A model generated the notes under the pieces. It ran no database searches, had not been told where the DNA came from, and was given only the letters and a program-made list of their open reading frames with translations. A DNA stretch of 64,000 nt, from positions 1 through 64,000 of the forward strand of contig CAIMSN010000106.1 in NCBI GenBank assembly GCA_903844135.1, in the 5' to 3' direction. Origin of the DNA: an uncultured Rhodospirillales bacterium. Its GTDB lineage: Bacteria > Pseudomonadota > Alphaproteobacteria > Acetobacterales > Acetobacteraceae. Within the stretch, counting starts at the first letter, position 1; every line of letters starts with the position of its first letter. The translations under genes were made by a program, and so were the position numbers. Positions 18,681-39,011 of the stretch are shown here, in pieces.

Positions 18681-19223
18681 TTGCCCGATATCGATCGCCC
18701 GGTCGCTCCGGTTGTCATCAAGAAATACGCCAACCGTCGCCTCTACGACACCGAAGGCTCGATCTACATCACCCTCGACAGCCTGGCGGCGATGGTCCGG
18801 CGGGGGCGGGATTTCGTCGTGTTCGACGCCAAGACCGGCGACGACATCACCCGCAGCGTGCTGACCCAGATCATCGTCGAGGAGGAGACCAAGGGCCGCA
18901 ACATGCTGCCGACCCGGTTCCTCCGGCAGTTGATCGGGCTCTACGGCGACAGCGCCCAGGGGGAAGTCCCGGCGTTCCTGGAGGACATGATGGCGCAGTT
19001 CGCCGCCCGGTCGGCGAAGCCGGCTCAGGAGCCGGCAAAATCCGGGACCCCGATCATCGACCGGGCCAAGACCCTGCTCAACCCGTTCCATCGCTCCGGT
19101 TCGGGACGCGAACCGGCTTCCCAGGACCCGCAGGATGCGGAGATCAGGCGCCTGCAGCAGGAGATCGAGCGGCTGAACCGGCTGCTTTCGACGACGGCGG
19201 AGGCGAGCCAGGGTCGCTCCTGA
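18681..19223 (+). CDS. phaR: Polyhydroxyalkanoate synthesis repressor PhaR
   Basis: VVIKKYANRRLYDTEGSIYITLDSLAAMVRRGRDFVVFDAKTGDDITRSVLTQIIVEEE is canonical PhaR; TTG start. Confidence 0.93.
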   Translation: MPDIDRPVAPVVIKKYANRRLYDTEGSIYITLDSLAAMVRRGRDFVVFDAKTGDDITRSVLTQIIVEEETKGRNMLPTRFLRQLIGLYGDSAQGEVPAFLEDMMAQFAARSAKPAQEPAKSGTPIIDRAKTLLNPFHRSGSGREPASQDPQDAEIRRLQQEIERLNRLLSTTAEASQGRS

Positions 19224-19242
19224 GCCTGGCCCGGAGCGGCGC

Positions 19243-19914
19243 TCAGAGGTCTGCCCAGCGCCGGACCAGATTGTGATAGATCCCGGTCAGCGCGATGACG
19301 GCGGGGGCGCCGGCAGCCTGGGCGGACAGCGACTGGATTGCCTGATCCAGCTCCAGCAGCAGGCTCCGCTGCCCGTCGTCGCGGACCAGGCTCTGCATCC
19401 AGGTGACCGCCGCGATTCGCTCGCCCCTGGTCACCGGCTCGACCGCATGAACGCTCGACGAGGGGTAGAGCACCATCGTCCCCGCTTCCAGCCGCACGCG
19501 GCGCGGTCCGAAGCGATCCTCGATCAGCAGGGCCCCGCCGTCATACTGGTCGAGTGGAGTCAGGAACAGGGTCGCGGACAGGTCGGTGCGGATACTGCCG
19601 CCGTGAAAATGCCGAATCGCGTTGTCGACATGAGACCCGAACCGATCGCCGGGCCGGTAGCGGGAGAAGACCGGCGGGAACACGCGTCGCGGCAGCGCCG
19701 CGGCGACGAAGCTGGGGATACGCCCCCAGGCGGCGACCAGCGCCTCGCCGAGCTCGCCGGCCACCGGATCGTCCGCCGGCAACTGGTGGTTGCGCTTGGC
19801 GTGTACCGACTGGTGGCCGGCGGTGACCGCGCCGGACTCCCAGTCGCGTTCCAGCAGGCGCGCGCGCAGCGCGGCGGCCGCCTGCTGCGTCAGCACCGGG
19901 ATCTCGATCAGCAT
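19243..19914 (-). CDS. piuC: Fe(II)/2-oxoglutarate-dependent PKHD-type hydroxylase
   Basis: VFSRYRPGDRFGSHVDNAIR, RTDLSATLFLTPLDQYDGGALLIED, YPSSSVHAVEPVTRGERIAAVTWMQS; downstream of a TonB receptor. Confidence 0.93.
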   Translation of the reverse strand: MLIEIPVLTQQAAAALRARLLERDWESGAVTAGHQSVHAKRNHQLPADDPVAGELGEALVAAWGRIPSFVAAALPRRVFPPVFSRYRPGDRFGSHVDNAIRHFHGGSIRTDLSATLFLTPLDQYDGGALLIEDRFGPRRVRLEAGTMVLYPSSSVHAVEPVTRGERIAAVTWMQSLVRDDGQRSLLLELDQAIQSLSAQAAGAPAVIALTGIYHNLVRRWADL

Positions 19915-22079
19915 CAGTAGCTGGCGCTGAGCGAGACCAGGGCGGCGCGCGCCGGTCCGATTACGATATGGGTCGGGTGCAGCGCCGCATACGTGGTCAC
20001 GTCGCTGACGTTGGTGACGTTCACCTGAGCCGTCAGGTGACGATCGATCCGGTATTTCGCCATGAGCTGCAGGGTGGTGGCTCCCGGCGCGCGCTCGATG
20101 ATGGTGGTGCCGCTGACCGGGAGCGAACTGGCGGTGCGCGAGGAGGTGTAATTGACGCCGGCGCCGAGCGTCAGGCGCAGCGCCGGGAACAGGTATTCGC
20201 TCCAGAGCGCCAACGTGTGCTTGGGCGCATTGGGCGGCGCGTTGTGCAGCTCCAGGCGGTTCGGCGACGACACCACGATCACGTCGTCGTAGCCGTAGCC
20301 GCCGAACACCTCCCAGTAGCGGGTGAGGTGGCCGGACAAAGAGAGTTCGACGCCGCGCGAGCGGTAGTTGCCGGCGAGAATGGTGCGGGTAGCGTCGGTG
20401 GGGTCGGTCTCGCGGACGTTGGCCATCTGGATCTGGTACAACGCGCCGGCCAGGCTCAGCCGTCCAAGGTCCCATTTGGTGCCGACCTCGTAGGTGGTCG
20501 AGGTCTGCGGCGCGACCCTCGCCGTCGCCGCGGTCAGCGCGATCGCCTCGCCGGACGGATCGAACGAGGAGCCGTAGTTGAAATAGACGCTGCCGCTCTC
20601 GGCCGGCTTCAGCACCACGGCGCCACGGTACGACGGGTGGTCGTCGACCCGCGTCACAGAGATGGCCGGTGCGACGATCTGCTTGTACTCGGTCGCGTAG
20701 TGGTCCCAGCGCCAGCCGCCGAGCAGCTGCAGGAAGCGTCCGATCGAGACGGTATCGTTGACGTACGGCGCGGTGTCGTTGCTGACGCTGCCGGAGATCG
20801 ACCGGATCGTCGACCGGTAGACGAACGGCGTGGACAGGTCCGGCGCCAGCAGGCTGGTCTTGCCCTGCGGATAGAGATAGCGGGTGATGTCCGAGGTCTG
20901 ACGCTGCACTTCGAAGCCTGCCAGGACCGCGTGGCGGACCGTCCCGGTGGCGAATCTGGCCTCTGCCTCAAGCTGGTTGTCCAGCAGCGTCGACGGGCCG
21001 CTCAGCGCCAGCACGTTGCGCGAGACCTGCAGCGAGGAGAGCGGCAGGCTGGCTGGCACGATGTCGGTCGAGCCGGTATAGCCGAGGAACTCCGGCTCCA
21101 CCGCGCGCTGGCCGATATTGAACGCGGAATAGCGGATCTGGTCGTGCACGGTGACGGCGTGGCCCAGATCGCGTTCGACGCGAACGGTACCGATATTGAC
21201 GATCGAGCGCAGGTAATCGTCGTCCGGATAGCCGTAGAAGTTCGACCGCTGCACCGGCGCCGGACGACCGTTCAGCCACGGCAGCCCATAGGACTGGGTG
21301 TCGTAGGATTGCTGCCGGAAATAATCGATCCGCAACCTGGTGGCGGTGTCGAGGCCGAACGCCAGCGAGGGCGCCACGCCGTAGCGCCTGGTGCGGGCGA
21401 CGTCGATGCCGGAGATGCCGGCATCGTGCACCATCGCGTTGACCCGGATCGCGCTGCCGCCGAGCGCCTTGCTGCTGCGGTCGACGTCGAGTGTCAGCCG
21501 CTCGGTGCCGTCGGTGCCGAACGACAGCGTGCCGGCGGCAACCGGGCTCGCCTGGGCGCGCCTGGTGACCTCGTTGATCACGCCGCCGGTCGAGCCGCGG
21601 CCGAACAGGGTGGCCGACGGGCCCTTCAGCACCTCGATCGTGTCCAGATCGAACGGATCACGGTAGTAGCTGCCGAAATCCAGCATGCCGTCGCGGTAGA
21701 AATCGTTCTGGGCGTTGAAGCCGCGGATCGACAGATTGTCGCCCTGCTGGCCGCCTTCGCCGGCGGCGATGCTGATCCCCGGGACGCTTCTCAGCGCATC
21801 CAGCACCGAGACGCTGTTCTGGTCGGCGAGCAACTGCTTCGGGATCTCGGTGACGGTCTGCGGCGTGTCGACCAGCCTGGTCATGATTCGGTCGAGATGC
21901 GGATGCTTTTGCTGGAAGCCGGTGTGATGCCCCAGGACGGTCAGGGATTCCGCGCCCTGGTCGGCCGCGTCGTCGGCATCGTCCGGCTGGGCGCGGGCGG
22001 GCTGCGGCATCAGCCAGGCGCCGGCCAAGGCCATGCCCAGCGTCGAGGTCCGCAGGCTTCTGGTCGCGTCGATTGTCAC
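19914..22079 (-). CDS. TonB-dependent siderophore receptor (PiuA/Fiu-like)
   Basis: Plug PQTVTEIPKQLLADQ...LRSVPGISIAAGEGG..SIRGFNAQNDFYRDG, IEVLKGPSATLFGRGSTGGVINEVTR; C-terminal SLSASY. Confidence 0.93.
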   Translation of the reverse strand: MTIDATRSLRTSTLGMALAGAWLMPQPARAQPDDADDAADQGAESLTVLGHHTGFQQKHPHLDRIMTRLVDTPQTVTEIPKQLLADQNSVSVLDALRSVPGISIAAGEGGQQGDNLSIRGFNAQNDFYRDGMLDFGSYYRDPFDLDTIEVLKGPSATLFGRGSTGGVINEVTRRAQASPVAAGTLSFGTDGTERLTLDVDRSSKALGGSAIRVNAMVHDAGISGIDVARTRRYGVAPSLAFGLDTATRLRIDYFRQQSYDTQSYGLPWLNGRPAPVQRSNFYGYPDDDYLRSIVNIGTVRVERDLGHAVTVHDQIRYSAFNIGQRAVEPEFLGYTGSTDIVPASLPLSSLQVSRNVLALSGPSTLLDNQLEAEARFATGTVRHAVLAGFEVQRQTSDITRYLYPQGKTSLLAPDLSTPFVYRSTIRSISGSVSNDTAPYVNDTVSIGRFLQLLGGWRWDHYATEYKQIVAPAISVTRVDDHPSYRGAVVLKPAESGSVYFNYGSSFDPSGEAIALTAATARVAPQTSTTYEVGTKWDLGRLSLAGALYQIQMANVRETDPTDATRTILAGNYRSRGVELSLSGHLTRYWEVFGGYGYDDVIVVSSPNRLELHNAPPNAPKHTLALWSEYLFPALRLTLGAGVNYTSSRTASSLPVSGTTIIERAPGATTLQLMAKYRIDRHLTAQVNVTNVSDVTTYAALHPTHIVIGPARAALVSLSASY

Positions 22080-22099
22080 GGGAGATGCCTTTCTGTAAA

Positions 22100-22114
22100 T
22101 GCAACTCAGTCGCA
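22100..22114. promoter_or_regulatory. Candidate Fur-family operator: inverted repeat TGCAAC-TCA-GTCGCA
   Basis: Imperfect palindrome (5 of 6 positions per arm) in the 61-bp gap between divergent TonB receptor and Sel1 genes. Confidence 0.4.
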
Positions 22115-22140
22115 ACAACTGGTAGAGGAGTTTCCGGCCG

Positions 22141-23058
22141 GTGACAAACCCTCTCGTACTGTCCCGGACGGCCTCGCTCAGGCGCCAGGCGGAACGCGGA
22201 CACGTCGCCGCACAATTGGTGTTCGGCCAGGCGCTGCTCGATTCAGCAGACCCCGTGCAGGCGGCACGCTGGTTCGCGATCGCCGATACCGCCGGCTTCG
22301 CGCCGGCGGCCAACATGCTGGGAAGGTGTCACGAGAAAGGCTGGGGCGTGCCGGCCGATCCCCGCCAGGCCGCTTCCTGCTATCGGCGCGCCGCCGCGGC
22401 CGGCGATCCCTGGGGCTGCTACAATCTCGCCAACCTGTATCTGCGCGGCCGCGGGGTCGAGCGCGATCGGCTGGAATCGTGGCGGCTGTTCCTTCAGGCG
22501 GCCGGCCAGGGACATGCGAAGTCGATGAACCTGGTGGCGCGCTTCCTGGACGAGGGGTGGGACCGGGCGCGCGACCGCCGGGCGGCGCTCCTTTGGTATC
22601 GGCGCGCCGCGGAGGCCGGCGACTATCGCGGACAGCACAATCTGGCGACGGCGCTGGCGGAGCAGGGCGCGCTCGACGAGGCGCTGTCCTGGTGGGGACG
22701 GGCGCTGCCAGCGGCGACGCCGGATGTGCGCGAGGCGATGGAGCAGGCGTTGCGTGGCATCGATCACAACGAGGCGCGGCGTCTGCTGGCGGCGTTGTGC
22801 GGAGAGCGCGCCTCGCGAGGCCCGGGCGAGCGGGGCGAAACCGGCGCTCGGCCGCGCGGCGGACCGCTCAGACGGCTGCTCACGCCCATCGTCGACCGCG
22901 CCAAGAGCCTGCTCAACCCGTACTATCGCGGTGCCGGCGGGCGCGAACCCGCGGCTGCGAACGCCAGCGCGCAGGAGATACGCCGGCTGCAGAAGGAGAT
23001 CGAGCGGCTGAACCGCCTGCTCGCCGGCGCCATACCGGACCCACAGAGCAGGGGCTGA
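22141..23058 (+). CDS. Sel1-repeat protein with PhaR-like C-terminal coiled-coil tail
   Basis: Repeats such as AANMLGRCHEKGWGVPADPRQAASCYRRAAAAGDPWGCYNLANLYLRGRGV; C-terminal PIVDRAKSLLNPYYR...EIRRLQKEIERLNRLL. Confidence 0.9.
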   Translation: MTNPLVLSRTASLRRQAERGHVAAQLVFGQALLDSADPVQAARWFAIADTAGFAPAANMLGRCHEKGWGVPADPRQAASCYRRAAAAGDPWGCYNLANLYLRGRGVERDRLESWRLFLQAAGQGHAKSMNLVARFLDEGWDRARDRRAALLWYRRAAEAGDYRGQHNLATALAEQGALDEALSWWGRALPAATPDVREAMEQALRGIDHNEARRLLAALCGERASRGPGERGETGARPRGGPLRRLLTPIVDRAKSLLNPYYRGAGGREPAAANASAQEIRRLQKEIERLNRLLAGAIPDPQSRG

Positions 23059-23289
23059 CCGGGTACCGGAATCTCAATAACGCGACGCGCAACGTTGCAG
23101 AAGGCGTTCGTCTCAAAACATAGAGCAATTCGCTTGCAGACCTGCTGTCGAGCATACAAAAACATTGCCTCGCGAAGTCTTCAGAGTTGCCATATTGATA
23201 CTGCATTGATACTCCGGTGTATCGCTCGAGCGACGGCAGGCGGAAGCCAGTTTGAGCGAGACTCCGGCGCAGGTGGGTTGGCAGCAGGC

Positions 23290-24033
23290 ATGTTTATTCC
23301 GTTCACCCAGGCACTGAAGACCGGACTGCAGGAGCGTGGTGTCGAATCCCTGCATGGCGTCGGGGTCAACATCTCCGCCCAGGCGGTCTTCGAGCCGCCC
23401 TGCTCGATCAAATGGATGAACATCGAAAGCCAATTTGAGCTCGGCGCATTCAGCTACGCCGTCAGCGGCTATTTCTCCTGCGTCAGGATCGGCCGCTACA
23501 GTTCGATCGGCGAATCGGTGCAGATTGGCCGCGCCAGCCACCCGACCGACTGGATCAGCAGCAGCCCGTTCTTCTATCTGCCGGGCAACATCTTCTCCGT
23601 CGGCGAGGAGTTCGCGCAGGCCGAGCAGTATCGCACCTACAGCGCGCCGATGCGGCCGCACGCGCAGGCGACCGCCTTCAAGCCGATCAAGATCGGCAAC
23701 GACGTCTATATCGGCCACGGCGCCTGCATCATGCCGGGCGTCACCATCGGCGACGGCGCGGTGGTGGGGGCCATGGCGGTGGTGACCAAGAACGTGCCGC
23801 CCTATGGCATCGTCGCCGGCAATCCGGCCCGGCTGATCAGGTTTCGGCTCGACCCTTACATCTTCGCCCAGCTGCTGCATTTGCAATGGTGGCGCTATGC
23901 GCCCTGGCAGCTGACCGAGGTCGATTTCTCCCGGCCGGCCGATGCGGTCGAGGCTATCAAGCGCGTGGTCGCCGAGCAGAGCCCGTACGAGCCGGACAAG
24001 GTCCTGTTGTCGGACCTGGCGGCGGAGCTCTAG
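23290..24033 (+). CDS. CatB-related O-acetyltransferase (hexapeptide repeat)
   Basis: RIGRYSSIGESVQIGRASHPTDWISSSPFFY, IGNDVYIGHGACIMPGVTIGDGAVVGAMAVVTKNVPPYGIVAGNPARLIRFR. Confidence 0.9.
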   Translation: MFIPFTQALKTGLQERGVESLHGVGVNISAQAVFEPPCSIKWMNIESQFELGAFSYAVSGYFSCVRIGRYSSIGESVQIGRASHPTDWISSSPFFYLPGNIFSVGEEFAQAEQYRTYSAPMRPHAQATAFKPIKIGNDVYIGHGACIMPGVTIGDGAVVGAMAVVTKNVPPYGIVAGNPARLIRFRLDPYIFAQLLHLQWWRYAPWQLTEVDFSRPADAVEAIKRVVAEQSPYEPDKVLLSDLAAEL

Positions 24034-24034
24034 C

Positions 24035-24634
24035 GTGCCGCTGGCGATCAGCGACCAGGGAAGCGGCAATCGCATCGAGATCGATGCCGAGACCATGGAG
24101 ACGTCCGACGGCAGTATCGTGCTGTCTGGCAGCGGCAACTTGGTCAGCATCGCTCACGGCGTCTCGCTGCAGAATGCCAGCATCAGCCTGGGCTCCGGCT
24201 GCGCCCTGGTGATCGGGCAGGATTGCAGGGTGGCGGCCCTCGAGCTGGTCGCGAAGCGCTCCGCACATGTGCGGATCGGGGCGGATTCCAATTTCACCTG
24301 GCACACACGGCTCTATCTGCACGAGCCCGGCAGGATCGAGATCGGCGAGCACTGCCTGATCGCCAGCGACGTGCTGATGACCATCAGCGACATGCATTCG
24401 ATCATCGACCGCGACACCGGGCAGAGGATCAATCCGGCCAGGGACATCGTGATCGGCGACCAGGTATGGCTCGCGCACTCCGTCACAGTGATGGGCGGGT
24501 CGCATGTAGGCCAGGGCGCGATCGTAGGGCTCGGCTCGGTGGTGACCGGAACGCTCGAAAATTATACCCTATCGGTCGGGCGCCCCGCGCGGACGATACG
24601 ATCTAACGTCACGTGGGACGCCGCACTGCGGTAA
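24035..24634 (+). CDS. Hexapeptide-repeat acyltransferase
   Basis: IEIGEHCLIASDVLMTISDMHSIIDRDTGQRINPARDIVIGDQVWLAHSVTVMGGSHVGQGAIVGLGSVVTG. Confidence 0.88.
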   Translation: MPLAISDQGSGNRIEIDAETMETSDGSIVLSGSGNLVSIAHGVSLQNASISLGSGCALVIGQDCRVAALELVAKRSAHVRIGADSNFTWHTRLYLHEPGRIEIGEHCLIASDVLMTISDMHSIIDRDTGQRINPARDIVIGDQVWLAHSVTVMGGSHVGQGAIVGLGSVVTGTLENYTLSVGRPARTIRSNVTWDAALR

Positions 24635-24685
24635 GCCACCCCGACGACACTGACAGCACGAACTGATCGCTTGCCGGAGATACCC

Positions 24686-25828
24686 ATGTCGAAGGGTCGC
24701 ATTTTTGTCGTCGGGGCCGGCTTTGCCGGCGCGGTCTATGCCAGGACCTTGGCTGACAGCGGCTATGCCGTCCAGGTGATAGACCGCAGGCCTCATATCG
24801 CCGGCAACGCCTATGACGAGGTGACGGAGCAGGGCGTGCGGCTGCACCGCTATGGCCCGCATCTTTTTCATACCAGCAACAAGAAAGTTGTCGACTGGCT
24901 GTCGCGCTTCACGCTGCTCGACGAATATCACCACAAAGTGGAAGCTCTGCTCGAGGACGGTCAGTGCGTACCACTGCCAATCAACCGTCGCACCCTCAAC
25001 ACCGTGTTCGGCGTATCGCTCCAGGACGAGGCGGAGGTGCGGGCCTTCCTGGCAGCGCAGGCCGAGCCGATTGCTGACATAAGCAACGCCGCGGACCATT
25101 TGAGGGCCAACATCGGGTCCAGGCTCACCGATCTCTTCTTCCGCCCCTACACGAGGAAGATGTGGCAGATGGATCTGGAGGAACTCGACGCCAACGTGGT
25201 CAAGCGCATTCCGCTCCGGTATGACGACGAGGACCGATACTTTCCCAATGACGATTATCAGCTGATGCCGCGCGGCGGCTACACTGCCACGTTCGTCAGC
25301 ATTCTCGATCATCCGGACATATCAGTGTCTTTGTCGACGGAATTCGATAAAGCTATGGTTTCGGCCTACGACTACTGCTTCAACAGCATGCCCATCGACG
25401 AGTTTTTTGATTTCGACGAAGGGCCGTTGCCATACAGGTCGATCCGGTTTCATCACGAAGTCAAGCCGGCTTCCTATCAAAGGGGGGCGACTTCCGTCGT
25501 CAACTTCACTGATACCGGCAGATTCACTAGGGAAACCGACTGGAGCATGCTGCCCGGACACCGTGTGGTGGAGACTGGGAGCAAGCTGATCACCCTTGAG
25601 GAGCCTTGCGATTACCGTGACAATCAGATGGAGCGCTACTATCCAGTCAAGACGAGCGATGGCCGATACGATGCGATCTATCAGCGCTACCGTCAGCGCG
25701 CGGACACCCTCAATACAATGGATTTCATTGGCCGCTGCGGTACCTACCAGTATCTCGACATGCACCAGGTCATCAATCAGTCGCTTGCAGGTGCGAATGC
25801 CTGGCTTGAAAAGCGGGCCAGGACGTAG
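24686..25828 (+). CDS. glf: UDP-galactopyranose mutase
   Basis: FVVGAGFAGAVYARTLADSGYAVQVIDRRPHIAGNAYDE, HRYGPHLFHTSNKKVVDWLS, PYTRKMWQMDLEELDANVVKRIP. Confidence 0.95.
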   Translation: MSKGRIFVVGAGFAGAVYARTLADSGYAVQVIDRRPHIAGNAYDEVTEQGVRLHRYGPHLFHTSNKKVVDWLSRFTLLDEYHHKVEALLEDGQCVPLPINRRTLNTVFGVSLQDEAEVRAFLAAQAEPIADISNAADHLRANIGSRLTDLFFRPYTRKMWQMDLEELDANVVKRIPLRYDDEDRYFPNDDYQLMPRGGYTATFVSILDHPDISVSLSTEFDKAMVSAYDYCFNSMPIDEFFDFDEGPLPYRSIRFHHEVKPASYQRGATSVVNFTDTGRFTRETDWSMLPGHRVVETGSKLITLEEPCDYRDNQMERYYPVKTSDGRYDAIYQRYRQRADTLNTMDFIGRCGTYQYLDMHQVINQSLAGANAWLEKRART

Positions 25829-26820
25829 TCGCTGACGGCGTCTTGAACCAGGTTCCTATTGAAAATCTCGATTGTGCCTTCGACGTGGCTCAATCCGAGC
25901 GGCACCGGGCGTGTTTCAAAGCCCGGAAGACCGGCGACAAGGCTTACGTAGTAGGCCTCGGCCATGTTCTCGCTGTCGTAAAACATCGTGTGTCTGACGT
26001 TATGGCGATGGCATGAGTCCCCCAGCACCGCTATTTCGAGGTCGATCTCGGCTCTGCCGGCCATGCCGACGGCCTGATCAGTGAGCAATTCCGCCGCAAG
26101 ACCATAAGGAACATGCTGGGTGATGAAATCCCTGTGGCGCTGGCTGTGCGCGGTCTGCGGATTGATCACGAACGTCCGGAAAGACGTGTCGGGCAGGATT
26201 CTGCAAAGACGCTCCGCAAGCAGCAAACTCGCATAAGCGCCCGAGCTCATACCGATCAGGACGACCCTTCGGTAGGTGCCTGCTATGATGGCATGTAGCA
26301 TGCTCTGCAGCCGCAGGAGCTTGTCGGTGTAATATACGGTAGGCGACCGCACCTCGGCAATCCTAACGTGATCGAGTCCCAGAGCGATCGGGAGATCGAA
26401 GAATTCCCAACGCGTGTAGGGACCCTCGCTCGGCCGGCCGGCAGAATTGAAAATGACCAGAACTGTGTCGCTCTCGCCGCTGAGCGACATCGATACGTTG
26501 AATCGACTTTCCCGCATCGGTGCCTGAGCAGCGGAGGGGTCCAGGAAATGATAGATCGACTGACCAGGAGCCATTACGAATTTCCCGCACAGGCGGGTCA
26601 AATTGCCGGAGACCAGATGCCGGCGGTCGAAGCGGTTGGTAACCGTACCATCTCCAAGCGACAGCACGAGCGCTCCGTTCTCGATCGCCCAGCCTGTTTC
26701 GCCGATCATATCGCCACTGAACGAACCGTCCTGCTCAAATCGCAGGTCCGCCGCAATTACTTCGCCGGTGGAGCGCGAAAACCGCCAGCTCCGTTCTATC
26801 AGCTCCTCGGCGGTGATCAT
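25777..26820 (-). CDS. Alpha/beta-hydrolase-fold protein with N-terminal accessory domain
   Basis: VVLIGMSSGAYASLLLAERL nucleophile-elbow-like motif; separate N-terminal SWRFSRSTGEVIAADLRFEQDGSFSGD domain. Confidence 0.65.
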   Translation of the reverse strand: MITAEELIERSWRFSRSTGEVIAADLRFEQDGSFSGDMIGETGWAIENGALVLSLGDGTVTNRFDRRHLVSGNLTRLCGKFVMAPGQSIYHFLDPSAAQAPMRESRFNVSMSLSGESDTVLVIFNSAGRPSEGPYTRWEFFDLPIALGLDHVRIAEVRSPTVYYTDKLLRLQSMLHAIIAGTYRRVVLIGMSSGAYASLLLAERLCRILPDTSFRTFVINPQTAHSQRHRDFITQHVPYGLAAELLTDQAVGMAGRAEIDLEIAVLGDSCHRHNVRHTMFYDSENMAEAYYVSLVAGLPGFETRPVPLGLSHVEGTIEIFNRNLVQDAVSDYVLARFSSQAFAPASD

Positions 26821-26869
26821 CCTATACCGCTAACGGAATCGGTTACCACAGCGACTGATGCTCTGCCGA

Positions 26870-28018
26870 TCAAGCGCCGACCATTTCCTGCTGCTGAACA
26901 ACGTCGTCCTGCTTGCAGAAATCTTTTAATGCGCGCTTCAGCGCCAGAGCGGGCATTGTCCACCCGCGCGTATCCAACGGTTCCTCGGCGTGGTCGGTGG
27001 TGCCGAAGACACACCCGTATCGCATCTGCGCCAATCCAGCCATGCGCCGGATGCTCCAGATGAGATTGTCGACCATGTGAAATTCGAGCAGCCGAGCGCC
27101 GGGCTGGCAGAAGATGACGTTGCCCAGGCCCGCGCCATGTGCGCCGACAACGTGCGTCGCGCTGGCGAAGAGCTGCACCTGCTGGGCGACCGACATGCCG
27201 CTCATGATGATCGGTTCGAACCCCTCGCGCTCCAAGATCTCGATCACCTCATCCTCGTTTGCGAGGCGCCGTTTGGTCGCGTCCTTTCGGCTGACGTAGA
27301 TTTTCCTGGTCGCAACCAACGGCGCGCCGGCGCGCCGCCTGACCTCCTCGAGCAGCAGCCGCCGCGCAGGATGCGGGTTTGGATCGGAGGAGACGATTTG
27401 CGGCATGTAGGTCAGACGCTGGCACGAAACCCGGGTCTGCTCGCCAATGAACACGGCGCGGCGTTTTGCCTCTACAAGTAGATCAAGACTGCCAAGCTGG
27501 AACGGCGCGCGCAGCTTGGGCATCACCACGACGGATCCTCGCACATCGTCGCCAAATGGCGGTATCTGCAGCGTCGAGGCGACGTCGATCCACCAGTGCG
27601 CGTAATTGCGATTGGCGACGAAACCGCACATCGAATAAGTCGCGTCAGCGACCTCAAGGGCGATTTCCGGCTCTTCGAGCTCGAGCGTATTGTCATCTAT
27701 GCGGGTGAAACCAGTCGCCGCCAGATGGACGTGATAGAGCGATTCGCGAATGACGATATCGCCTATCGAAATGACGCCTTGTTCACCATGGATCACGGCT
27801 CCGAACAGGGTGAAACGATCGACATGCGGGCAACTGTAGGATGGTGCCGACCAGGTACCTTCCGGCCACTCCTGGATCACTTCCGCGGGCCTGCTTACCT
27901 GGCCGAATTCAATCGCCGGTATCGCGACCTCGGCGTAGGGGAGACCCTCGGATTGCACGGGCACGGGGAATCCGTGCAGTTCGCCGGGTGCGGTAGCGAT
28001 GATGTAGCGCAGATCCAT
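26870..28018 (-). CDS. Glycosyltransferase family 61 protein
   Basis: NRNYAHWWIDVASTL, RKIYVSRKDATKRRLANEDEVIEILEREGFEPI, ASATHVVGAHGAGLGNVIFCQPGARLLEF; start could be 28066. Confidence 0.88.
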   Translation of the reverse strand: MDLRYIIATAPGELHGFPVPVQSEGLPYAEVAIPAIEFGQVSRPAEVIQEWPEGTWSAPSYSCPHVDRFTLFGAVIHGEQGVISIGDIVIRESLYHVHLAATGFTRIDDNTLELEEPEIALEVADATYSMCGFVANRNYAHWWIDVASTLQIPPFGDDVRGSVVVMPKLRAPFQLGSLDLLVEAKRRAVFIGEQTRVSCQRLTYMPQIVSSDPNPHPARRLLLEEVRRRAGAPLVATRKIYVSRKDATKRRLANEDEVIEILEREGFEPIIMSGMSVAQQVQLFASATHVVGAHGAGLGNVIFCQPGARLLEFHMVDNLIWSIRRMAGLAQMRYGCVFGTTDHAEEPLDTRGWTMPALALKRALKDFCKQDDVVQQQEMVGA

Positions 28019-28262
28019 CAGACGGTAACGTCGCAGCACGTGAATACGAGCTCCATAGCAAACCACGGTCGAGACGTAGCATGGCTGTGGTTACTTGCAA
28101 TCATAATCCAAAGCCCCAGGACAATCGGTCAGAACTGAGCGCCTCAAGCTGGACTATCTATTTAAAAAGACACCGCTGGCCCGGTTTGCGTGTTGCCATC
28201 GTGCGACGCGGCCGACAGATTCCGGCGTGCGCCGCAATGGCGTCGGCGGGGGAGGCGGACTG

Positions 28263-29675
28263 ATGCGGGTCTTGAGGAGGGCATGCTATCTGGTTGGTCC
28301 CGTGCTGTGCATCGCGGCGAACGGGGGCGCGCCTGCCTCTACCGTCGAACAGCGCGCGACACAGGATGCGGCACCGATGCTGCAGGTCGCAACTGCCTCA
28401 GGCCCAGCGTCACAGGGTCCCGATGATGGTCCGGCGGTCGCCGCTGCGCTGCGAGCCGCGTCCGCCGGACAATTCATCTATGCACGCCCAGGCCGGCTCG
28501 TGGCGCGCGGGCAGGATGGCCTGGACTGCGGCGATCCCGGTAAGGGTCCGATCTGGATCGTTCCCGGCACGACCTACGACGGCGCCTATGTCGTCGACCA
28601 TCTTGGCTGCGACGAGCTGGTCACCTCACGCAATGGTGGTCTGGTGCTGGCAAGGGGGCCCAGAAATACCGCAAGCCAGCCAGCCAATCTGACAGTGACG
28701 GAAAGTTTCGATGCGACGACGTCCAATGGCGTCGCATTTTCCCCGGGCGGGCCGGGAGGTGTTGTCTCCAGCCTGCAGGTCAACAGCTTGGTGCCCACGC
28801 CGGCACCTGGATCAGGGGAATGGACCCGCCCCTTTGTCTGGGGACTTGGCTCGTATGTCTTCGATGGTGGTCGCGCCGCCCCGGACGGTGGTGGGGGTGC
28901 GCAGCATGTCGCGCTCACCGGTCAGCTCGAACGTTCAAGGCGAGACAACGGCGACACGCGGCAAAGCAATATCGGGTTCGGCCTCTATGGCCACGTCGGC
29001 AGTCCGAACGACGTGCCGACTGCGGTCGACGGTTCCCTGGTCGGCGCGGAGATCGACGTCGCTGTCCACAATCTCGATCCGGCCGGCGCCCGGGCCACGC
29101 TCACCCTCAATTGCGCGATCGACGGCCCCGGCAGCGGACCGCAATGCGGTCATGGCATCCTCTTCGGCGACGAGGATCACGGGGCAGGCGGCGCAAGGGC
29201 GTTCAATACGACGTTGATCGATGCAGTAGGCGCGAAATATCTGCGCGCGGCGCTTGATCTTTCCGGCGCGCAGCCGGTGGACAGCTTCGCCGAGACGGTC
29301 GCACCGCAGCCTGACGCCGCGACGCTTCAGCTGCAGCCACCGCTGTCGTTGATCGCGCCGGGTGAGACTGTTTCGGGGCCAGGCATCGCCGCTGGAAGTG
29401 TCGTTCTTGCCGCCGATCCGGTCAGCGGCCTGATAAGGCTGGATCATCCAGCCACCACGTTGCTCCGTGCGCGCCTTCGGTTCAGTAGCACCGGGCCGCT
29501 GATCGCGCTCGGGGACGGCCGAGGTATCCAAATGGATAATGGCGGCGTGTTCAGGGTGGTTTACGATCCCAATCACGGGCGAACCGAGATCACCGTCAAT
29601 GGCCTCGCCGCATTCGCGGTCGACATGAAAGGGCACGTGCACGTGCGCGCCCCGGTGATTGCCGATCTTCCCTGA
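28263..29675 (+). CDS. Secreted protein of unknown function in the polysaccharide locus
   Basis: Signal peptide-like start; SQGPDDGPAVAAALRAASAGQFIYARPG resembles the opening of pectate-lyase-like beta-helix or tailspike proteins. Confidence 0.6.
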   Translation: MRVLRRACYLVGPVLCIAANGGAPASTVEQRATQDAAPMLQVATASGPASQGPDDGPAVAAALRAASAGQFIYARPGRLVARGQDGLDCGDPGKGPIWIVPGTTYDGAYVVDHLGCDELVTSRNGGLVLARGPRNTASQPANLTVTESFDATTSNGVAFSPGGPGGVVSSLQVNSLVPTPAPGSGEWTRPFVWGLGSYVFDGGRAAPDGGGGAQHVALTGQLERSRRDNGDTRQSNIGFGLYGHVGSPNDVPTAVDGSLVGAEIDVAVHNLDPAGARATLTLNCAIDGPGSGPQCGHGILFGDEDHGAGGARAFNTTLIDAVGAKYLRAALDLSGAQPVDSFAETVAPQPDAATLQLQPPLSLIAPGETVSGPGIAAGSVVLAADPVSGLIRLDHPATTLLRARLRFSSTGPLIALGDGRGIQMDNGGVFRVVYDPNHGRTEITVNGLAAFAVDMKGHVHVRAPVIADLP

Positions 29676-29720
29676 CAAGATGCCTGCCGGGCTTGGCCGG
29701 TCTATCGAGGACAGCGCTCA

Positions 29721-30827
29721 ATGATGATCCCCGCCACGACGCTGGTGCGACAGAAATGGGACTTCGTCCGCCGCGGCGGCGAGAGGATCGGCACGCTCCA
29801 GTTCGCCGCAGACGGACGGGTCATCGGTCAGACTAGCCCCTTCGAACAGCATTGGTCTCTGACCCAGGATCAGCTCGTGCTGAGCGGGGATGGCGGACTA
29901 GCGACCACATGTTTTCATACCGCGATGCTTGCGCATGGGCGCTGGATGCTGCTCGGTGATTTCCTTCCGCTGGGGTGGCCAGACCATCACGAACTGCACG
30001 AGGGCGAGAGGGTCGAGGACTGGGAAAGCGTTCGTGACACGGTTCCCGAAATACTCTCGGTGTTCCACGAAGCTGTCCTGTTTCGCACCAGCAGCCGCGT
30101 CATCGCGGCACTGACCGGGCTTGGCATCTATTTTGGACGCAGCGTGAACCGATTTGCCGAGGGAGATGTGGTGTTTGTTCCCCGCGCCGGGCGGACTGAA
30201 CCCTATTGCAGCTATTCCATTGGCAACAGGATCGTCGAGATGGGCGCGTTTTCCTATACCGAGAGCCCGCTCCCAGACATGCGGATCGGCCGCTATTGCT
30301 CGATCGCCTCAGGTCTCGACGTCTTCAAGGATCGCCATCCGGTGGAATGGGCCACCTCATCATCGATCAGCTATGATTTCATTGCGCCAATCGGCTACCA
30401 GGCCTTCATCGCGGCACAGGAGCATTTCAACCAGGGACGGATGCCGCCGAGGCGGCCAGATACGCTCATGGCCCCGCCGCCGACCCTGGAGCACGACATC
30501 TGGATCGGGCAGAACGTCCAGCTCGCGCGTGGTATTACGATCGGCACCGGCTCCGTGATCGCCGCGGGAGCCGTGGTGACGCGGGACGTGCCGCCCTATT
30601 CGATCATGGGTGGGGTGCCAGCCCGCAAGATCAAACAGCGCTTCTCCGATCGCGTCGTCGAGCGGATGCTTGGGACGCGATGGTGGCGACACGGTCCCGA
30701 TCTGCTGCAGGCGGCCGACATCACCGATCCGGAGCGGTTCGTCGACACGGCGGACGCGTGGTCGGAGCGCGCTCCCTTCGAGCCACGCTTCATATGGGCC
30801 GAAGATCTGATCGCGAAGCTAGCTTAG
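29721..30827 (+). CDS. CatB-related O-acetyltransferase with N-terminal accessory domain
   Basis: RIGRYCSIASGLDVFKDRHPVEWATSSSISYDF, IWIGQNVQLARGITIGTGSVIAAGAVVTRDVPPYSIMGGVPARKIKQRF; extra ~95-aa N-terminal region. Confidence 0.88.
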   Translation: MMIPATTLVRQKWDFVRRGGERIGTLQFAADGRVIGQTSPFEQHWSLTQDQLVLSGDGGLATTCFHTAMLAHGRWMLLGDFLPLGWPDHHELHEGERVEDWESVRDTVPEILSVFHEAVLFRTSSRVIAALTGLGIYFGRSVNRFAEGDVVFVPRAGRTEPYCSYSIGNRIVEMGAFSYTESPLPDMRIGRYCSIASGLDVFKDRHPVEWATSSSISYDFIAPIGYQAFIAAQEHFNQGRMPPRRPDTLMAPPPTLEHDIWIGQNVQLARGITIGTGSVIAAGAVVTRDVPPYSIMGGVPARKIKQRFSDRVVERMLGTRWWRHGPDLLQAADITDPERFVDTADAWSERAPFEPRFIWAEDLIAKLA

Positions 30828-33800
30828 CGGCCAAACGACTGATCGGCCAAGTCTTTGCAAGACAATGCGTCAGTCGGTGCGTCAGACAAAGAGCCGAATT
30901 CACGCCTTAAACGCTCTATGGAAGAACTGTTACCATAGCTCAACTGTGCATCTTGAGGAATAATGGCGTCGTAATTGAAATTGACTATTGCATCGAGAAC
31001 GGCCAATGGATCAATTGGGAAGTCAATTACCACACCGTAAGACGCGGCCCGGACCCGTTCCGCTGGTGCCCCAATATCCGGTACCATTGGAACCAAGCCT
31101 GCATGTACGGCTTCGGATAGTGTATAGGAGAAGGTTTCTGGCCAGCAACTCGTGAAAAGGGCAATACGGCCGCCTACCTCGTCCAGTAGCCTAGAAAGTT
31201 TCGTCGGGTCATATCGACCGAGGATTTCAACGTTACCTAATTTGGTGAAACTTTCATCCATATCCGTATGGCCGACTATTGTGAACGTAAGCTGCTGATG
31301 GGTCAAACGTGCCTGAGAGGCGATTTCAAATAATTGCTTGGACCCTTTATGAGGCCCTATACCGCCGAGCACGATTACGTTGTCACTGTGCCCTGAACGC
31401 ACTTTCAGGCACCGCGAGATAACTGGCTCAGGGTGCGGGATAGTTGTGATCAAAGCTTCGGGAAACATGTCGGAAAAATAGCCTTCCGCACTTTTAGATG
31501 GCACGATTATTTTAGTAATTGCTCGGAAGAGGCGCGAGAATAACTCGCGATGGTCGGTTGTATTAAGCTCAGTGAGCATAGACGCTTCATGATCCTTACC
31601 GTATTCACGGCAGCGCTGACAGACGTCTGGCTGAGCCGCGCCACAAAAGCGTTGCGCCGCATCTATGAATGTGACCCGCGGGCAAGCGGCGTAAAAGTCA
31701 TGCCCGTAAAAGAAACTCTTTCGATGACCCATCCAGCGGGTCAGAGCCGATATAAAGAGTTCGGAATAACCTAAAAGCTGGTGTATTACAACAAGATCTA
31801 TCACAGCAGCATTCAGTAACAGTATCATAGATTCAGTGTCATCGGAGCTAAACACCGCGCGCAACAATGGATTTTCGGCTGTTAATGTAACCATGCCATT
31901 CTGGTCACACTTCATAGTTATGATATCGCGGTCTCCATAGCCGACAAGACTGGCTATATCTTTGCTGGCCTTGACAGTCCCGCCACCTAGCCAATTTTCT
32001 ACGATCAGCGCAAATTTCTGGTCGCGGTGGCGGCTGCGACGAAGTCTCGCTATATCAAGTGGCCAACGCCCAATACGCAAAGGGTCAGTCACTTCAAAAT
32101 CCATAATCGTCGGTGTATATTCCGGATACATCCCATTCAATGTCGCGAGATTCCGGCTAATGAGAACTTCCTTCTCAGAACCAAACGACACACTTTCTCT
32201 GTGCTCGACGAGTACACCTATCGCGGCAACATGGCGAAAGCCGAGATCTGAGGCTCGTAAACAAAGCTCGTTCTCCTCTCCATACCCACGGCCAAACATT
32301 TCATTAAGCGTCTTGAGTCGGTCGAGGACCTCACGCCGAACAAGCATACAAAACCCGTGGCCGGTGGGGACATCCACTGTTTGTTCAGCGTTAGACGATA
32401 GGGCTATTTCGGCAAGCTCGCGCCAACTGATATCCTCTAGGCATAGACGGCTTAAACTCGGATGCGGATACGAGAATATAGTGGCGTTATTCGATAACGC
32501 TGTGACCGTAGCTATGTCGTCTGCCATGTGCAGAATCTGACGCATCTGTTCGATCCCGCCAGAATGTATGAATGTATCTGAATTCAAAAGCAGAATGTCG
32601 TTGGCTTTGGCGTACTCCAGGCCTCGGTTGACCGATCCAACGAAGCCTAAATTAGATTCATTATTGAGCACAACGACGCGATCGCTTTCCCTGAAGCGGG
32701 TCAGCATGGTTTGCATGCCTGCCTCCGGCGGGCAGTCTCCAATCAGTATGACCGTGTCCAGCGGTCCATAATTAGCTAATACGCTTCGAATACAAGCATC
32801 GGTGATTTCTATACCTTTATATATCGGAATCAGAATAGTTATAGGTCGGCCTGGCTTGAGGCTGGCTGACGCCGCAAGTCCGGACGTCCAAGAAAAATCG
32901 GCTCCGTGCCTGCATTTAGCAAGGTAGTCGTGAATTACATTCTGCAGTAACCCAAGTTCAGCCTTTCCAAGTCGGCCTGTGTCGCTGTGCGTAAGCGCGG
33001 CTAGCCGCTTTCCTGCCAAGACGAACGCAGAACGAGGCCCAGCTATGAAGGGTCCATTCAATAGATCGGCATTAGTTGCGGCAAGTCTTATGGAGAACTC
33101 AGCTAACCTACCGACCGGACTGTGGCTTGGCTGGTATGTAAGGTGGAAGCCGCGGCGCCAATTGTCTGGATAGGTATCCTTGAGATCACCTCGATCGCGA
33201 TTACATGGAGCTAAACCAAGCTTTATATTGTCGCGCCAAATTTCAAGCTTAAGAGCTCTTGAAGGTGCCTCGGGAGAGAGGAACCATCCAGCACAGTGAT
33301 CAGGCGCAATAACATCAATGAATCCAACGACAGTTAGCCTACCGCGAGCTTGTGCGAAAACATGGTCGCCAACCATCGCCTCTAAGATCAGATCCTTGCG
33401 ATTGAAAAAACATTCAGGAAGAAGGACATCAAAACGATGGGGCTGAAAGCGAGGGTCTGAGTCAAACTCGCTCTTAAACGTCTTACCAATAACACTAGCG
33501 AGACCGTCTAAAGTCCTGATTGTAACTTCAATTGGTAAATCATTACCTCTGCGGCGGCACGCCCAGCCGATGACGCGATCCTCCAAAATCTCAATGTATC
33601 CATCAACAATATCAGTCCGCAAAAGAAGTGGGGAATTGGGTAATTCTATGCCGTCCGCGAGGATACGGAGGGACGAAATATCATCGCAATTATCAAGGGA
33701 AACTTTGAAGCCGAAATCTGTCCGTCCTAATCCGAGCGCCGCAAGGTCCTCACGTGCATGTTGAGCGCGGCCTCGGCCCACAACAACGCCCGCATCGCTT

Positions 33801-33901
33801 ACGATCTCAATGACGCATTCCGAACCGTCCTGGCCAGGCAACGCCCAACCATGCACGTAAAGGCCCACCAATCCGTCGACATGGCCAATCAAACCGTTCA
33901 C
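30824..33901 (-). CDS. Large glycosyltransferase: N-terminal beta-type repeats, GT2 and GT4-like domains
   Basis: GT2 PITILIPIYKGIEITDACIRSVL...LLNSDTFIHSGGIEQM; GT4-like VIVLGGIGPHKGSKQLFEIASQ...LFTSCWPETFSYTLSEAVHAGLVPMVPDIGAPAERV. Confidence 0.88.
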   Translation of the reverse strand: MNGLIGHVDGLVGLYVHGWALPGQDGSECVIEIVSDAGVVVGRGRAQHAREDLAALGLGRTDFGFKVSLDNCDDISSLRILADGIELPNSPLLLRTDIVDGYIEILEDRVIGWACRRRGNDLPIEVTIRTLDGLASVIGKTFKSEFDSDPRFQPHRFDVLLPECFFNRKDLILEAMVGDHVFAQARGRLTVVGFIDVIAPDHCAGWFLSPEAPSRALKLEIWRDNIKLGLAPCNRDRGDLKDTYPDNWRRGFHLTYQPSHSPVGRLAEFSIRLAATNADLLNGPFIAGPRSAFVLAGKRLAALTHSDTGRLGKAELGLLQNVIHDYLAKCRHGADFSWTSGLAASASLKPGRPITILIPIYKGIEITDACIRSVLANYGPLDTVILIGDCPPEAGMQTMLTRFRESDRVVVLNNESNLGFVGSVNRGLEYAKANDILLLNSDTFIHSGGIEQMRQILHMADDIATVTALSNNATIFSYPHPSLSRLCLEDISWRELAEIALSSNAEQTVDVPTGHGFCMLVRREVLDRLKTLNEMFGRGYGEENELCLRASDLGFRHVAAIGVLVEHRESVSFGSEKEVLISRNLATLNGMYPEYTPTIMDFEVTDPLRIGRWPLDIARLRRSRHRDQKFALIVENWLGGGTVKASKDIASLVGYGDRDIITMKCDQNGMVTLTAENPLLRAVFSSDDTESMILLLNAAVIDLVVIHQLLGYSELFISALTRWMGHRKSFFYGHDFYAACPRVTFIDAAQRFCGAAQPDVCQRCREYGKDHEASMLTELNTTDHRELFSRLFRAITKIIVPSKSAEGYFSDMFPEALITTIPHPEPVISRCLKVRSGHSDNVIVLGGIGPHKGSKQLFEIASQARLTHQQLTFTIVGHTDMDESFTKLGNVEILGRYDPTKLSRLLDEVGGRIALFTSCWPETFSYTLSEAVHAGLVPMVPDIGAPAERVRAASYGVVIDFPIDPLAVLDAIVNFNYDAIIPQDAQLSYGNSSSIERLRREFGSLSDAPTDALSCKDLADQSFGR

Positions 33902-34299
33902 AGCGTGGCCTCAGTTAGGCTCTGTTGGCGTGTTTTCGAAGCGCTTTGAGATCCCCCCATCAACGACCAACCGGCATGAGCGAGGCGACCTTCACGAAAA
34001 CCGTCGGCGCCAAAGTGGTGCGAGGCAGATGTAAAATATCTTCGAGCAACTGCCTCAGCCACATCGGGATATTCGGCCAAATACCATGCCTCATCGACTA
34101 TGATTTTTCTCGGAAACCGATCCTCGTAGTAGCCGCTGAGAACATAGTGCATTTTCGCAGACCCAATTTCCCCGGAACGTATTTTTGCGTCTACGTCAGG
34201 GTTGGCCGCGCGATAATATTTTTCGTCAAACTCCACGTTCCATAGAACGCTCTGGAGCACCTCCCTGAGTCGACTTTCTACCACCTCTATAACCCGCAT
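33898..34299 (-). CDS. Small protein with two YxxxNPDV / HYxxxGxxExR motifs
   Basis: FDEKYYRAANPDVDAKIRSGEIGSAKMHYVLSGYYEDRFP and DEAWYLAEYPDVAEAVARRYFTSASHHFGADGFREGR; stop overlaps the glycosyltransferase start; start codon uncertain. Confidence 0.65.
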   Translation of the reverse strand: MRVIEVVESRLREVLQSVLWNVEFDEKYYRAANPDVDAKIRSGEIGSAKMHYVLSGYYEDRFPRKIIVDEAWYLAEYPDVAEAVARRYFTSASHHFGADGFREGRLAHAGWSLMGGSQSASKTRQQSLTEATL

Positions 34300-34469
34300 A
34301 GAACCTGCCTGCTGGATGCCCCGCAGACAACCGAATGGCGCAATCATACGTGCCTCCAAACCTGGAGCCTGTTCCCAAGGGGGCCTGCCAGGCTGCTGCC
34401 TTCCATGCTCAAATTGATAGGACGAGCAGCAGAGGTGTTCCAGTCTCAAGATTTGTATATCGAGCACAT

Positions 34470-35580
34470 CTTAAGATTATCTGGGTGTCGGTTGAATCAT
34501 ATCAATCGTATAGTAGGTATCTGGCATCGGTCTGTAGCGTGTCGCAGCGTCCCGACGCCGGTCTGAGACTTACATGCTCCCATCGTCGATTTGCGGGGTC
34601 GTTTCATGGTACGGTATTGCCGGAATAGGGACAGCTTATGAAGCGCTATTCCCCAGATCACATCTCCCTGTTGGAATTCTATTTTGGAAGGTTCGCGAAG
34701 ACCACGGTTTTAGAGTTCTGGGCCTACATACAATCCATTGAAATGCCAGTTTTCGGCGACCATTTCGGCAATGGATCGTGCAAGCTCTCATCTACCTCAT
34801 CGGTGGGAAGGCGGACCATCCCCATCACCCAGCGAGTTGAATTATGGATCCTTTGTTGCGATGTTAGCTCCACGCAACAGGAAACACTACTGATTAGCAC
34901 GGAGTAAAGAAGCAGCGGTCTATTATGACTAGTTGATGCATCGTCTTCGACCCAGGTTTCGCGTCACGCGAAGTTGTGATCGGCAACTACTTAAACAAAA
35001 GCCTACGGCAATCAATATTCTGGTCAACGAGAATCAGACCATTCCCAACGAACGCCATTGCCTGAGCGGTTCAGGACCTTTTGGCCTTTAGCGTATGATA
35101 TTGGATGTTTGTCTTCTCTATTGTATTTTTAGATCTAAAATAACGGGATCACTGATATCGTCGGTTCCGGACGCGGTGCCGACGAAAGAAACAGATTGCT
35201 CCCCACTTTCGTTGAGTTTTCCATCGTTATCGATTAGTTTATAGACGTGACCGAGGCCGTCGGGCTATCCTATTTATGTAAAGGGACTCGGTGCTGTTAG
35301 CATAGGCAAGTAGCTAGGCTCTGAGGGTCGTTTCGTGAATGACGGACGCGTCACCGGCACTGAGGTGGGGGTCCTGTTGCCATTGCGCTACATAGCAATC
35401 TGATGACGCTCCAGGGATCGACGGCCAGGCCGGTTCGATTAGCGGCTGGTTTTGCTTCTGTGAAAGTGCATACGCGGTAACGCGTGGTCAAGCAGCGTCA
35501 CGAGATTGGTCGGGCTCGTGATAAGCCTTTCACATAAGGCGAAACAAGCAATCAAGAGCAGGGAAGAGAAAACGCGTGGT
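34470..35580. other. Lower-GC, poorly coding stretch after the polysaccharide locus
   Basis: Visible rise in A/T runs compared with flanks; only short weak ORFs, such as 34638..34907. Confidence 0.55.
35118..35264 (-). pseudogene. Possible C-terminal remnant of a surface/exported protein
   Basis: Minus strand reads PDGLGHVYKLIDNDGKLNESGEQSVSFVGTASGTDDISDPVILDLKIQ-stop with in-frame stops immediately upstream and no start. Confidence 0.35.
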
Positions 35581-35582
35581 TG

Positions 35583-36935
35583 TTACGATGTCGTATTCCG
35601 ACGTAAAAGCGTTAAATATGTAAAGCTCAGCACGGCGATGAACGGCAGCCCGTACACCAGCGTCAGCCGGAATGCGACGGTGAAGATCGTCGTCGCCAGG
35701 ATCGCCGCCATCAGCAGCAGCCCCAGGATGCTGGTCCAGGGATAGCCCCACATCGCGAACCGTCCGCGCACACCATGCCGTGCGGCACGGAAGCAGAGAT
35801 GGGTGACGAAGATCATGCCCCAGGTGAACATCGCGCCGAACATCGAGACGGCGATCATCACCGTGAAGGCGCGGTCCGGCGCCATGACGTAGACCATCGC
35901 CGCGAGACCGATCCCGAGGCTCGACAGCAGCAGCGCCGGCAGCGGCACGCCGTTGCGGTTGACGGCACCCAGCGCCGCCGGGGCATGGCCGGCCTGGGCG
36001 ATGCTGAACAGCATCCTGGTCGCGGCATAGATCTGGCTGTTCATCGCCGACAGGGCGGCGATCAGGATCACCAGGTTCATCACCGAGGCGGCGCCGGGCA
36101 CCAGGCTGGCCACCATCACCGTCACGAACGGGCTGGTCCCGGAGGCGGCCTCGGACCACGGCATCACCGCGAGCATGACCGCCAGCGTGGCCAGGTAGAA
36201 GAAGCCGAGCCGGCCGATGGTCGCCCGCAGCGCCCGGGCGATGGCGCGCTCCGGATCCTTCGCCTCGCCGGCGGCCACCGCGATGGTCTCGATGCCGAGA
36301 TAGCTGAAGATCGAGACCACGACCGCGACCCATACTCCGCCGGCGCCATGCGGGAAGAAGCCGCCGAACCGCGCGTAGTTGGCGATGCCGACCGCCGGGC
36401 CGGGCGGTGCGCGCAGCAGCGTCCAGATCCCCAGCACCAGGAAGGCGAGGATCGCCGCGATCTTGATCGACGAGAACGCGTATTCGACCCAGCCGAACAT
36501 CCTGACGCTGGCGGCGTTGATCGCCACCAGGGCGGACGAGAACCCCAGGATCCACCACCAGCCGGGCAGCGACGGCACCCAGTAGCGCATGTAGATCGTC
36601 ACCGCCGTCACCTCGGTGCCGACCGCCAGCACGTTGGCCGACCAGTAGGCGTATCGCACCAGGTAGCCGGCCAGACCGCCGACATAGTGCCCGGCCAGCC
36701 AGCCGAACGACCCGGTGCTGGGATGGACCACGGTCATTTCCGCCAGGCACCCCATCAGCAGGAGCGCGATCAGCCCGCCGATCGCGTAGCTGACGAGAAC
36801 CGCCGGCCCGGCCAGGCTGATGGCGAAGCCGCTGCCGAGGAACAGGCCGGTGCCGATCGCGCCGCCGATCGCGATCATCGAGAGCTGGCCGCTGCCGAGC
36901 CGGCGCTGTAGCGTCGGCCTCTCCACGCCGTTCAC
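35583..36935 (-). CDS. APC-superfamily amino acid permease
   Basis: LGSGQLSMIAIGGAIGTGLFLGSGFAISLAGPAVLVSYAIGG, ATRMLFSIAQAGHAPAALGAVNRNGVPLPALL; GTG start overlapping kynU. Confidence 0.92.
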   Translation of the reverse strand: MNGVERPTLQRRLGSGQLSMIAIGGAIGTGLFLGSGFAISLAGPAVLVSYAIGGLIALLLMGCLAEMTVVHPSTGSFGWLAGHYVGGLAGYLVRYAYWSANVLAVGTEVTAVTIYMRYWVPSLPGWWWILGFSSALVAINAASVRMFGWVEYAFSSIKIAAILAFLVLGIWTLLRAPPGPAVGIANYARFGGFFPHGAGGVWVAVVVSIFSYLGIETIAVAAGEAKDPERAIARALRATIGRLGFFYLATLAVMLAVMPWSEAASGTSPFVTVMVASLVPGAASVMNLVILIAALSAMNSQIYAATRMLFSIAQAGHAPAALGAVNRNGVPLPALLLSSLGIGLAAMVYVMAPDRAFTVMIAVSMFGAMFTWGMIFVTHLCFRAARHGVRGRFAMWGYPWTSILGLLLMAAILATTIFTVAFRLTLVYGLPFIAVLSFTYLTLLRRNTTS

Positions 36936-38832: not shown

Positions 38833-38869
38833 CTTACCGGAGCGTCGCGATCGTGGAAGCGCTGCCGCT

Positions 38870-38998
38870 TCAGCCGAGGATCAGATGCTTCAGCCCCTCG
38901 GCGACGACCGCGACCACGACGATGCTGGCGGCCCAGATCGCCACGAACCAGCCGATCCGGGAAAACAGCCGTCCCGGCGGCGCCGGCACGGGCTGCAT
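38870..38998 (-). CDS. DUF2474-like small oxidase-associated membrane protein, absent from supplied ORF track
   Basis: MQPVPAPPGRLFSRIGWFVAIWAASIVVVAVVAEGLKHLILG-stop; single TM, immediately downstream of the oxidase subunit II gene. Confidence 0.75.
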   Translation of the reverse strand: MQPVPAPPGRLFSRIGWFVAIWAASIVVVAVVAEGLKHLILG

Positions 38999-39011
38999 CG
39001 GGGTGCGATCC

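Follow-up and report, generated by a model that had tools for sequence, protein, structure and literature searches.

Apparent copying of the PhaR C-terminal tail onto a neighbouring Sel1-repeat protein in an uncultured Acetobacteraceae bacterium

The last 58 residues of the regulator PhaR and of a Sel1-repeat protein encoded nearby were aligned with 34 of 58 positions identical and zero gaps, and comparison of their sequences with those of relatives indicates that this tail is almost certainly native to PhaR and was copied to the Sel1 protein in a single lineage. Both genes lie in a stretch of 64,000 nucleotides (contig CAIMSN010000106.1 of assembly GCA_903844135.1, an uncultured Rhodospirillales bacterium), referred to here as the window; its genome is denoted G000. 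The tailed Sel1 protein is regarded as a new chimera, produced by gene-end transfer between neighbours and known from one genome. The features concerned are as follows.

18681..19223, + strand: phaR, encoding a PHB_acc_N DNA-binding domain (PF07879, E 2e-30), a PHB_acc domain (PF05233, E 4e-10) and the tail; 180 aa, TTG start as listed
19047..19220, + strand: native PhaR C-terminal tail, the donor copy, consisting of box TPIIDRAKTLLNPFHR, linker and heptad helix; 27.3 bits against a profile of PhaR tails of other genera
19140..19187, + strand: PhaR heptad segment EIRRLQQEIERLNRLL; AlphaFold helix 150-177, pLDDT block means 76 and 84
19243..19920, − strand: piuC, PKHD-type Fe(II)/2OG hydroxylase; the listed ORF 19243..20475 is over-extended, and PF13640 and PF18331 match its C-terminal part
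19914..22316, − strand: TonB-dependent receptor in a piuA-like position (PF00593, PF07715)
22141..23058, + strand: sel1, PiuE/PA4516-type Sel1-repeat protein with PhaR-derived C-terminal tail; 305 aa, PF08238 three times, E 5e-22
22816..22881, + strand: Arg/Gly-rich low-confidence linker from Sel1 solenoid to tail; pLDDT about 47-55, against 95-98 for the solenoid
22882..23055, + strand: copy of the PhaR tail at the C-terminus of the Sel1 protein; scores 29.6 bits with the PhaR-tail profile, other Sel1 proteins 1.7 or less
22975..23022, + strand: heptad segment of the Sel1 protein, EIRRLQKEIERLNRLL; AlphaFold helix 271-296, pLDDT about 55-73

The open reading frames and both tails were located where the original prediction had placed them, and its estimate by eye of about 34 matching positions proved exact. 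At the DNA level the two tails are 64% identical over 174 bases. BLASTP of PhaR against the Sel1 protein returned 32 identities in 48 positions (E 5e-20, composition-adjusted), and when the phaR 3' end was searched against the window with blastn, 22882-23021 (77% over 144 bp, E 2e-22) was the one meaningful second match, the next having an E value of 0.07. The tail alone, which had been proposed as a query for further carriers, was found across the whole genome at these two places only (E 1e-20 to 1e-19; next 0.02). Upstream of the tails the proteins are unrelated, as had been claimed, with PHB_acc_N and PHB_acc domains in one and Sel1 repeats in the other, and domain matches agree with the placement of piuC and a TonB receptor on the opposite strand between the two genes. 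Similarity ends with the coding tail, phaR 3' flanking DNA past the tail having been sought at the sel1 end without a match. The segments TPI.DRAK.LLNP and GREPA, which lie outside the coil, also align gap-free. Heptad helices are common and of low complexity, and two such coils might in principle resemble one another by chance or convergence, but that explanation is refuted by these gapless segments and by the E values of the protein and DNA alignments.

The source of the tail was assessed with a profile built from Acetobacteraceae PhaR tails of other genera, the window's genus being excluded. These PhaRs end in MMERAMSLFxPFYR, a variable linker and EI..LRAEVERL...L. Against the profile the Sel1 protein scored 29.6 bits and the window PhaR 27.3, with other Sel1 proteins reaching at most 1.7. 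Strong tail matches, counted in family genomes that were also scanned for PF07879, numbered 105, and 104 of them adjoin a PF07879 domain; the lone exception is the window's Sel1 gene. The tail was found in none of about 110 Sel1 homologues (30 from the family and 80 from elsewhere), no second tailed Sel1 protein turned up when the Sel1 tail was searched against 398 family genomes, and no other non-PhaR carrier was seen in 200-398 family genomes. In a tree of tails the Sel1 tail joins the window's own PhaR (UFBoot 94, a moderate support from a short alignment). That Sel1/PiuE proteins were formerly tailed in general and lost the tail elsewhere is highly improbable in view of the roughly 110 untailed homologues and of this grouping, even though the synonymous divergence of the tail pair about equals that of the phaR orthologues of G000 and its congener G001. 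The shared tail is accordingly a real C-terminal module, as predicted, but it is not a domain that such proteins share at large; it belongs to PhaR, and one Sel1 protein, in this lineage only, has received a copy. Absence from the orthologues of both proteins had been named as evidence against the original reading, and the tail proved to be absent from those of Sel1 and present in those of PhaR.

The recipient belongs to a recognizable cassette. Among Sel1 homologues found across genera, 77/80 are adjoined by piuC and a TonB receptor, as in the window, so sel1 is taken as a member of an iron-uptake cassette and phaR as a stranger beside it; it is from the locus that an iron- or siderophore-related function of the Sel1 protein is suggested. 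Pseudomonas homologues are 43-56% identical to it, and the PA4516-type gene has been named piuE in the Pseudomonas piuA/piuC/piuB locus (PMC5971595), and in a minority of genomes this oxygenase/receptor pair has been described as having a Sel1-repeat neighbour (PMC12004943). The window protein resembles PiuE of the piuABC-piuE locus (PMC5971595) in its homologous solenoid (about 48% identity to the P. aeruginosa PA7 gene) and in having the same neighbours, but differs from it by the added linker and PhaR tail, which were found in no homologue. The longest ORF of the TonB receptor (−) overlaps the start of sel1 (+) by 176 bp (22141-22316), and the true receptor start probably lies further downstream.

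By comparison of loci the donor, the recipient, untailed orthologues and pre-insertion loci could all be identified. The backbone gene corresponding to window 39012-40043 directly follows phaR in G004. The two are separated by the piuC-TonB-sel1 cassette in G001, and by this cassette and about 16 kb more in the window. The cassette is found at other places in G002, G098 and G005. The syntenic sel1 of G001 is untailed, and no decayed tail was found downstream of it in three frames. Because the cassette sits directly after phaR, with the copy at its far end, and because homologues including the syntenic one are untailed, copying is considered local and lineage-specific. The sequences show that the cassette came to sit directly downstream of phaR, and that sel1 then gained at its 3' end, in the correct frame, a duplicate of the end of phaR, in the window's lineage only. 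Ectopic copying across 3.8 kb, later than the divergence from G001, is the simplest account. Duplication of the phaR 3' end by the cassette insertion itself, as a flanking repeat, is possible and fits the position of the copy at the far end, but is not favoured, since G001 shares the insertion but has no copy, and in the tail tree the copying postdates the G000-G001 split. The case offers a clean example of a gene end transferred to a neighbour unrelated to the donor and retained there.

The age of the copy was estimated from synonymous sites. The tail pair has a dS of 0.86, or 0.72 when only its first 48 codons are counted, a range of about 0.7-0.9 that is akin to the phaR dS of 0.67 between G000 and G001; by this resemblance the copying is an old event within the lineage, and the second tail does not stem from faulty assembly. 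The paralogue dN/dS of about 0.45 is an average over both branches and alone is no proof of selection. Neutral decay was simulated with the PhaR tail as the start and one simple mutation model, in 400 runs scored against the PhaR-tail profile. At d = 0.36-0.43, which is half of dS, the median score fell to 1-3 bits, a stop arose in about half of the runs, and 0/400 held the score of the Sel1 tail; this score was kept in 0/400 at d = 0.2 and in 2/400 at d = 0.1. Neutral runs thus lose their fit to the PhaR profile, yet the Sel1 copy fits as well as PhaR, which argues that the Sel1 tail is likely under purifying selection and useful on its new protein, as far as one mutation model can indicate. 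The Sel1 tail also retains S and Y where the window PhaR has changed (SLLNPYYR versus TLLNPFHR; G001 PhaR has SLLTPFYR).

These data bear on whether the tail is a passenger: a functionless 3' extension, fused by accident and tolerated. Its occurrence in one genome, the untailed syntenic congener, and the fact that sel1 works untailed everywhere else are all in keeping with such an origin. At a dS of 0.7-0.9, however, neutral decay should have erased the signature and often added stops, whereas the Sel1 tail outscores PhaR's own; we consider a passenger unlikely. We favour instead, at about even odds, the reading that the native PhaR tail was copied to the Sel1 protein and selectively kept, bringing that protein to PhaR or to the partner of PhaR's tail. 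Synonymous sites have diverged in both copies while the PhaR-tail signature was retained, which, with the simulations, indicates that the tail is useful to the Sel1 protein.

By sequence the window PhaR is a full member of the PhaR / AniA / PhbF family (TIGR01848; PF07879 and PF05233), scoring 133.9 bits against the TIGR01848 equivalog with its curated cut-off of 109.45, and the C-terminal box and heptad helix of the family are both recognizable in its tail; fewer residues separate PHB_acc from the box than in most PhaRs of the family. Unlike typical members, it lacks detectable PHB/PHA genes to regulate: in the whole genome, rated 100% complete, there was no match to PhaC_N (PF07167) or to Phasin_2 (PF09361). 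PhaC_N was likewise undetected in G002 and G004, the two congeners sampled, as against its presence in 107/150 family genomes. The window PhaR is hence described as an orphan regulator, a family member by sequence for which the usual role is doubtful. PhaR without detected PhaC_N was noted in G000, G002 and G004, and by comparison of two scans roughly a dozen of 119 PhaR-positive family genomes are apparently without PhaC_N.

The original prediction had proposed that the tail might take both proteins to the PHA granule surface or to a phasin, linking iron uptake with PHA control. PhaR is known as a PHB-binding regulator (PMC12542648, PMC3079617) and the PHB_acc domain is present here, which would suit such a role. 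With neither family matched in a genome rated complete, and PhaC_N missing from G002 and G004 although widespread in the family, the organism does not appear by gene content to form PHA granules; since no PHA synthase is detectable, granule targeting is an unlikely purpose of the tail, and the granule link, which did not survive this comparison, is judged very improbable.

The predicted structures are compatible with a tail that acts as a module. In the single-chain AlphaFold model of the Sel1 protein the solenoid has a pLDDT of 95-98, the linker about 47-55, and the tail helices low to fair values, so that the tail may hang by a flexible linker from a solenoid scaffold. The single-sequence model of PhaR is poor overall, its terminal helix 150-177 being the best-scored part. 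A long terminal helix was thus modelled in both proteins, in line with the coiled-coil-like helix proposed earlier, and the tail may be described as an amphipathic box (DRAKxLLNPxxR) followed by a putative short coiled coil. In the heptad EIRRLQxEIERLNRLL the a/d residues (I, L, I, L, L) and the e/g residues are identical in the PhaR and Sel1 tails, and the sole difference, Q in PhaR to K in Sel1, falls at an outward f position; the coil is short, at about 2.5 heptads. As a and d, e and g are all identical, mixed coils would be expected to be as good as pure ones, and the hetero-association of the tails suggested in the original prediction is kept as a possibility on this basis. An analogy in the way of working is offered by the phasins PhaF and PhaI, whose leucine zippers (PMC9049629) are short shared coiled coils predicted to give PHA-related hetero-oligomers, but the PhaR tail belongs to another sequence family and Phasin_2 was not detected in the window genome.

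PhaR is a tetramer in P. denitrificans and H. seropedicae (PMC3206438), and P. denitrificans PhaR lacking residues 164-195 is said, in the account of Yamada 2007 given in PMC3079617, to retain DNA binding. On these grounds the PhaR tail is a candidate oligomerisation or partner-binding part, which would act outside the DNA-binding domain. On the mechanism considered most likely, the Sel1 tail would let its protein co-assemble with PhaR or contact the partner of PhaR's tail, tethering a scaffold from the iron locus to the regulator; hetero-association of the two proteins is a reasoned guess from their sequences. In a narrower version, which we hold only tentatively and think rather unlikely, the transplanted oligomerisation tail would let the Sel1 protein enter PhaR oligomers and tune an orphan PhaR in a cell without PHA, a natural bridge made by local gene-end copying. 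A competing explanation, somewhat unlikely but deserving consideration, is that the tail serves to multimerise the Sel1 protein with itself, or to bind some unrelated partner, as a handy oligomerisation unit and without contact to PhaR. The tail is indeed a generic short heptad helix, and contact with PhaR is proposed from residue identities; these same identities at a, d, e and g, however, leave no sequence barrier to mixing when the proteins are co-expressed, and the box, which is not part of a coil, has been retained too. If the tail does mediate contact, a metal-uptake locus would be coupled to a global carbon regulator in a simple and natural way. The case makes testable both the role of the PhaR C-terminal tail and that of PhaR in bacteria without PHA synthase. 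A PDB sequence search with PhaR returned no relative, and literature searches combining PhaR with coiled coil and with iron/TonB returned nothing concerning the tail.

In the congeners G002 and G003 the box is gone from PhaR: the DRAKxLLNPFxR box is missing from the phaR products at loci L107 (G002) and L108 (G003), which retain the heptad part alone. Since these PhaRs do without it, the box is considered dispensable to PhaR in the genus, and such a loss would be expected if the role of PhaR has shifted. Within the genus, a clear PhaR box was seen only in the two genomes (n = 2) that have the piu cassette beside phaR.

Trees of backbone proteins and of cassette proteins are in conflict, the former pairing G000 with G002 (support 100) and the latter G000 with G001 (support 99), which suggests loss and re-acquisition of the piu cassette, or its transfer. 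Neither G001 nor G004 has, at this position, the extra segment of about 16 kb of the window (23095-39000). The first genes of the segment resemble surface-polysaccharide genes (hexapeptide transferases and UDP-galactopyranose mutase), and the counterpart of window 35583-38832 lies directly after phaR in G002.
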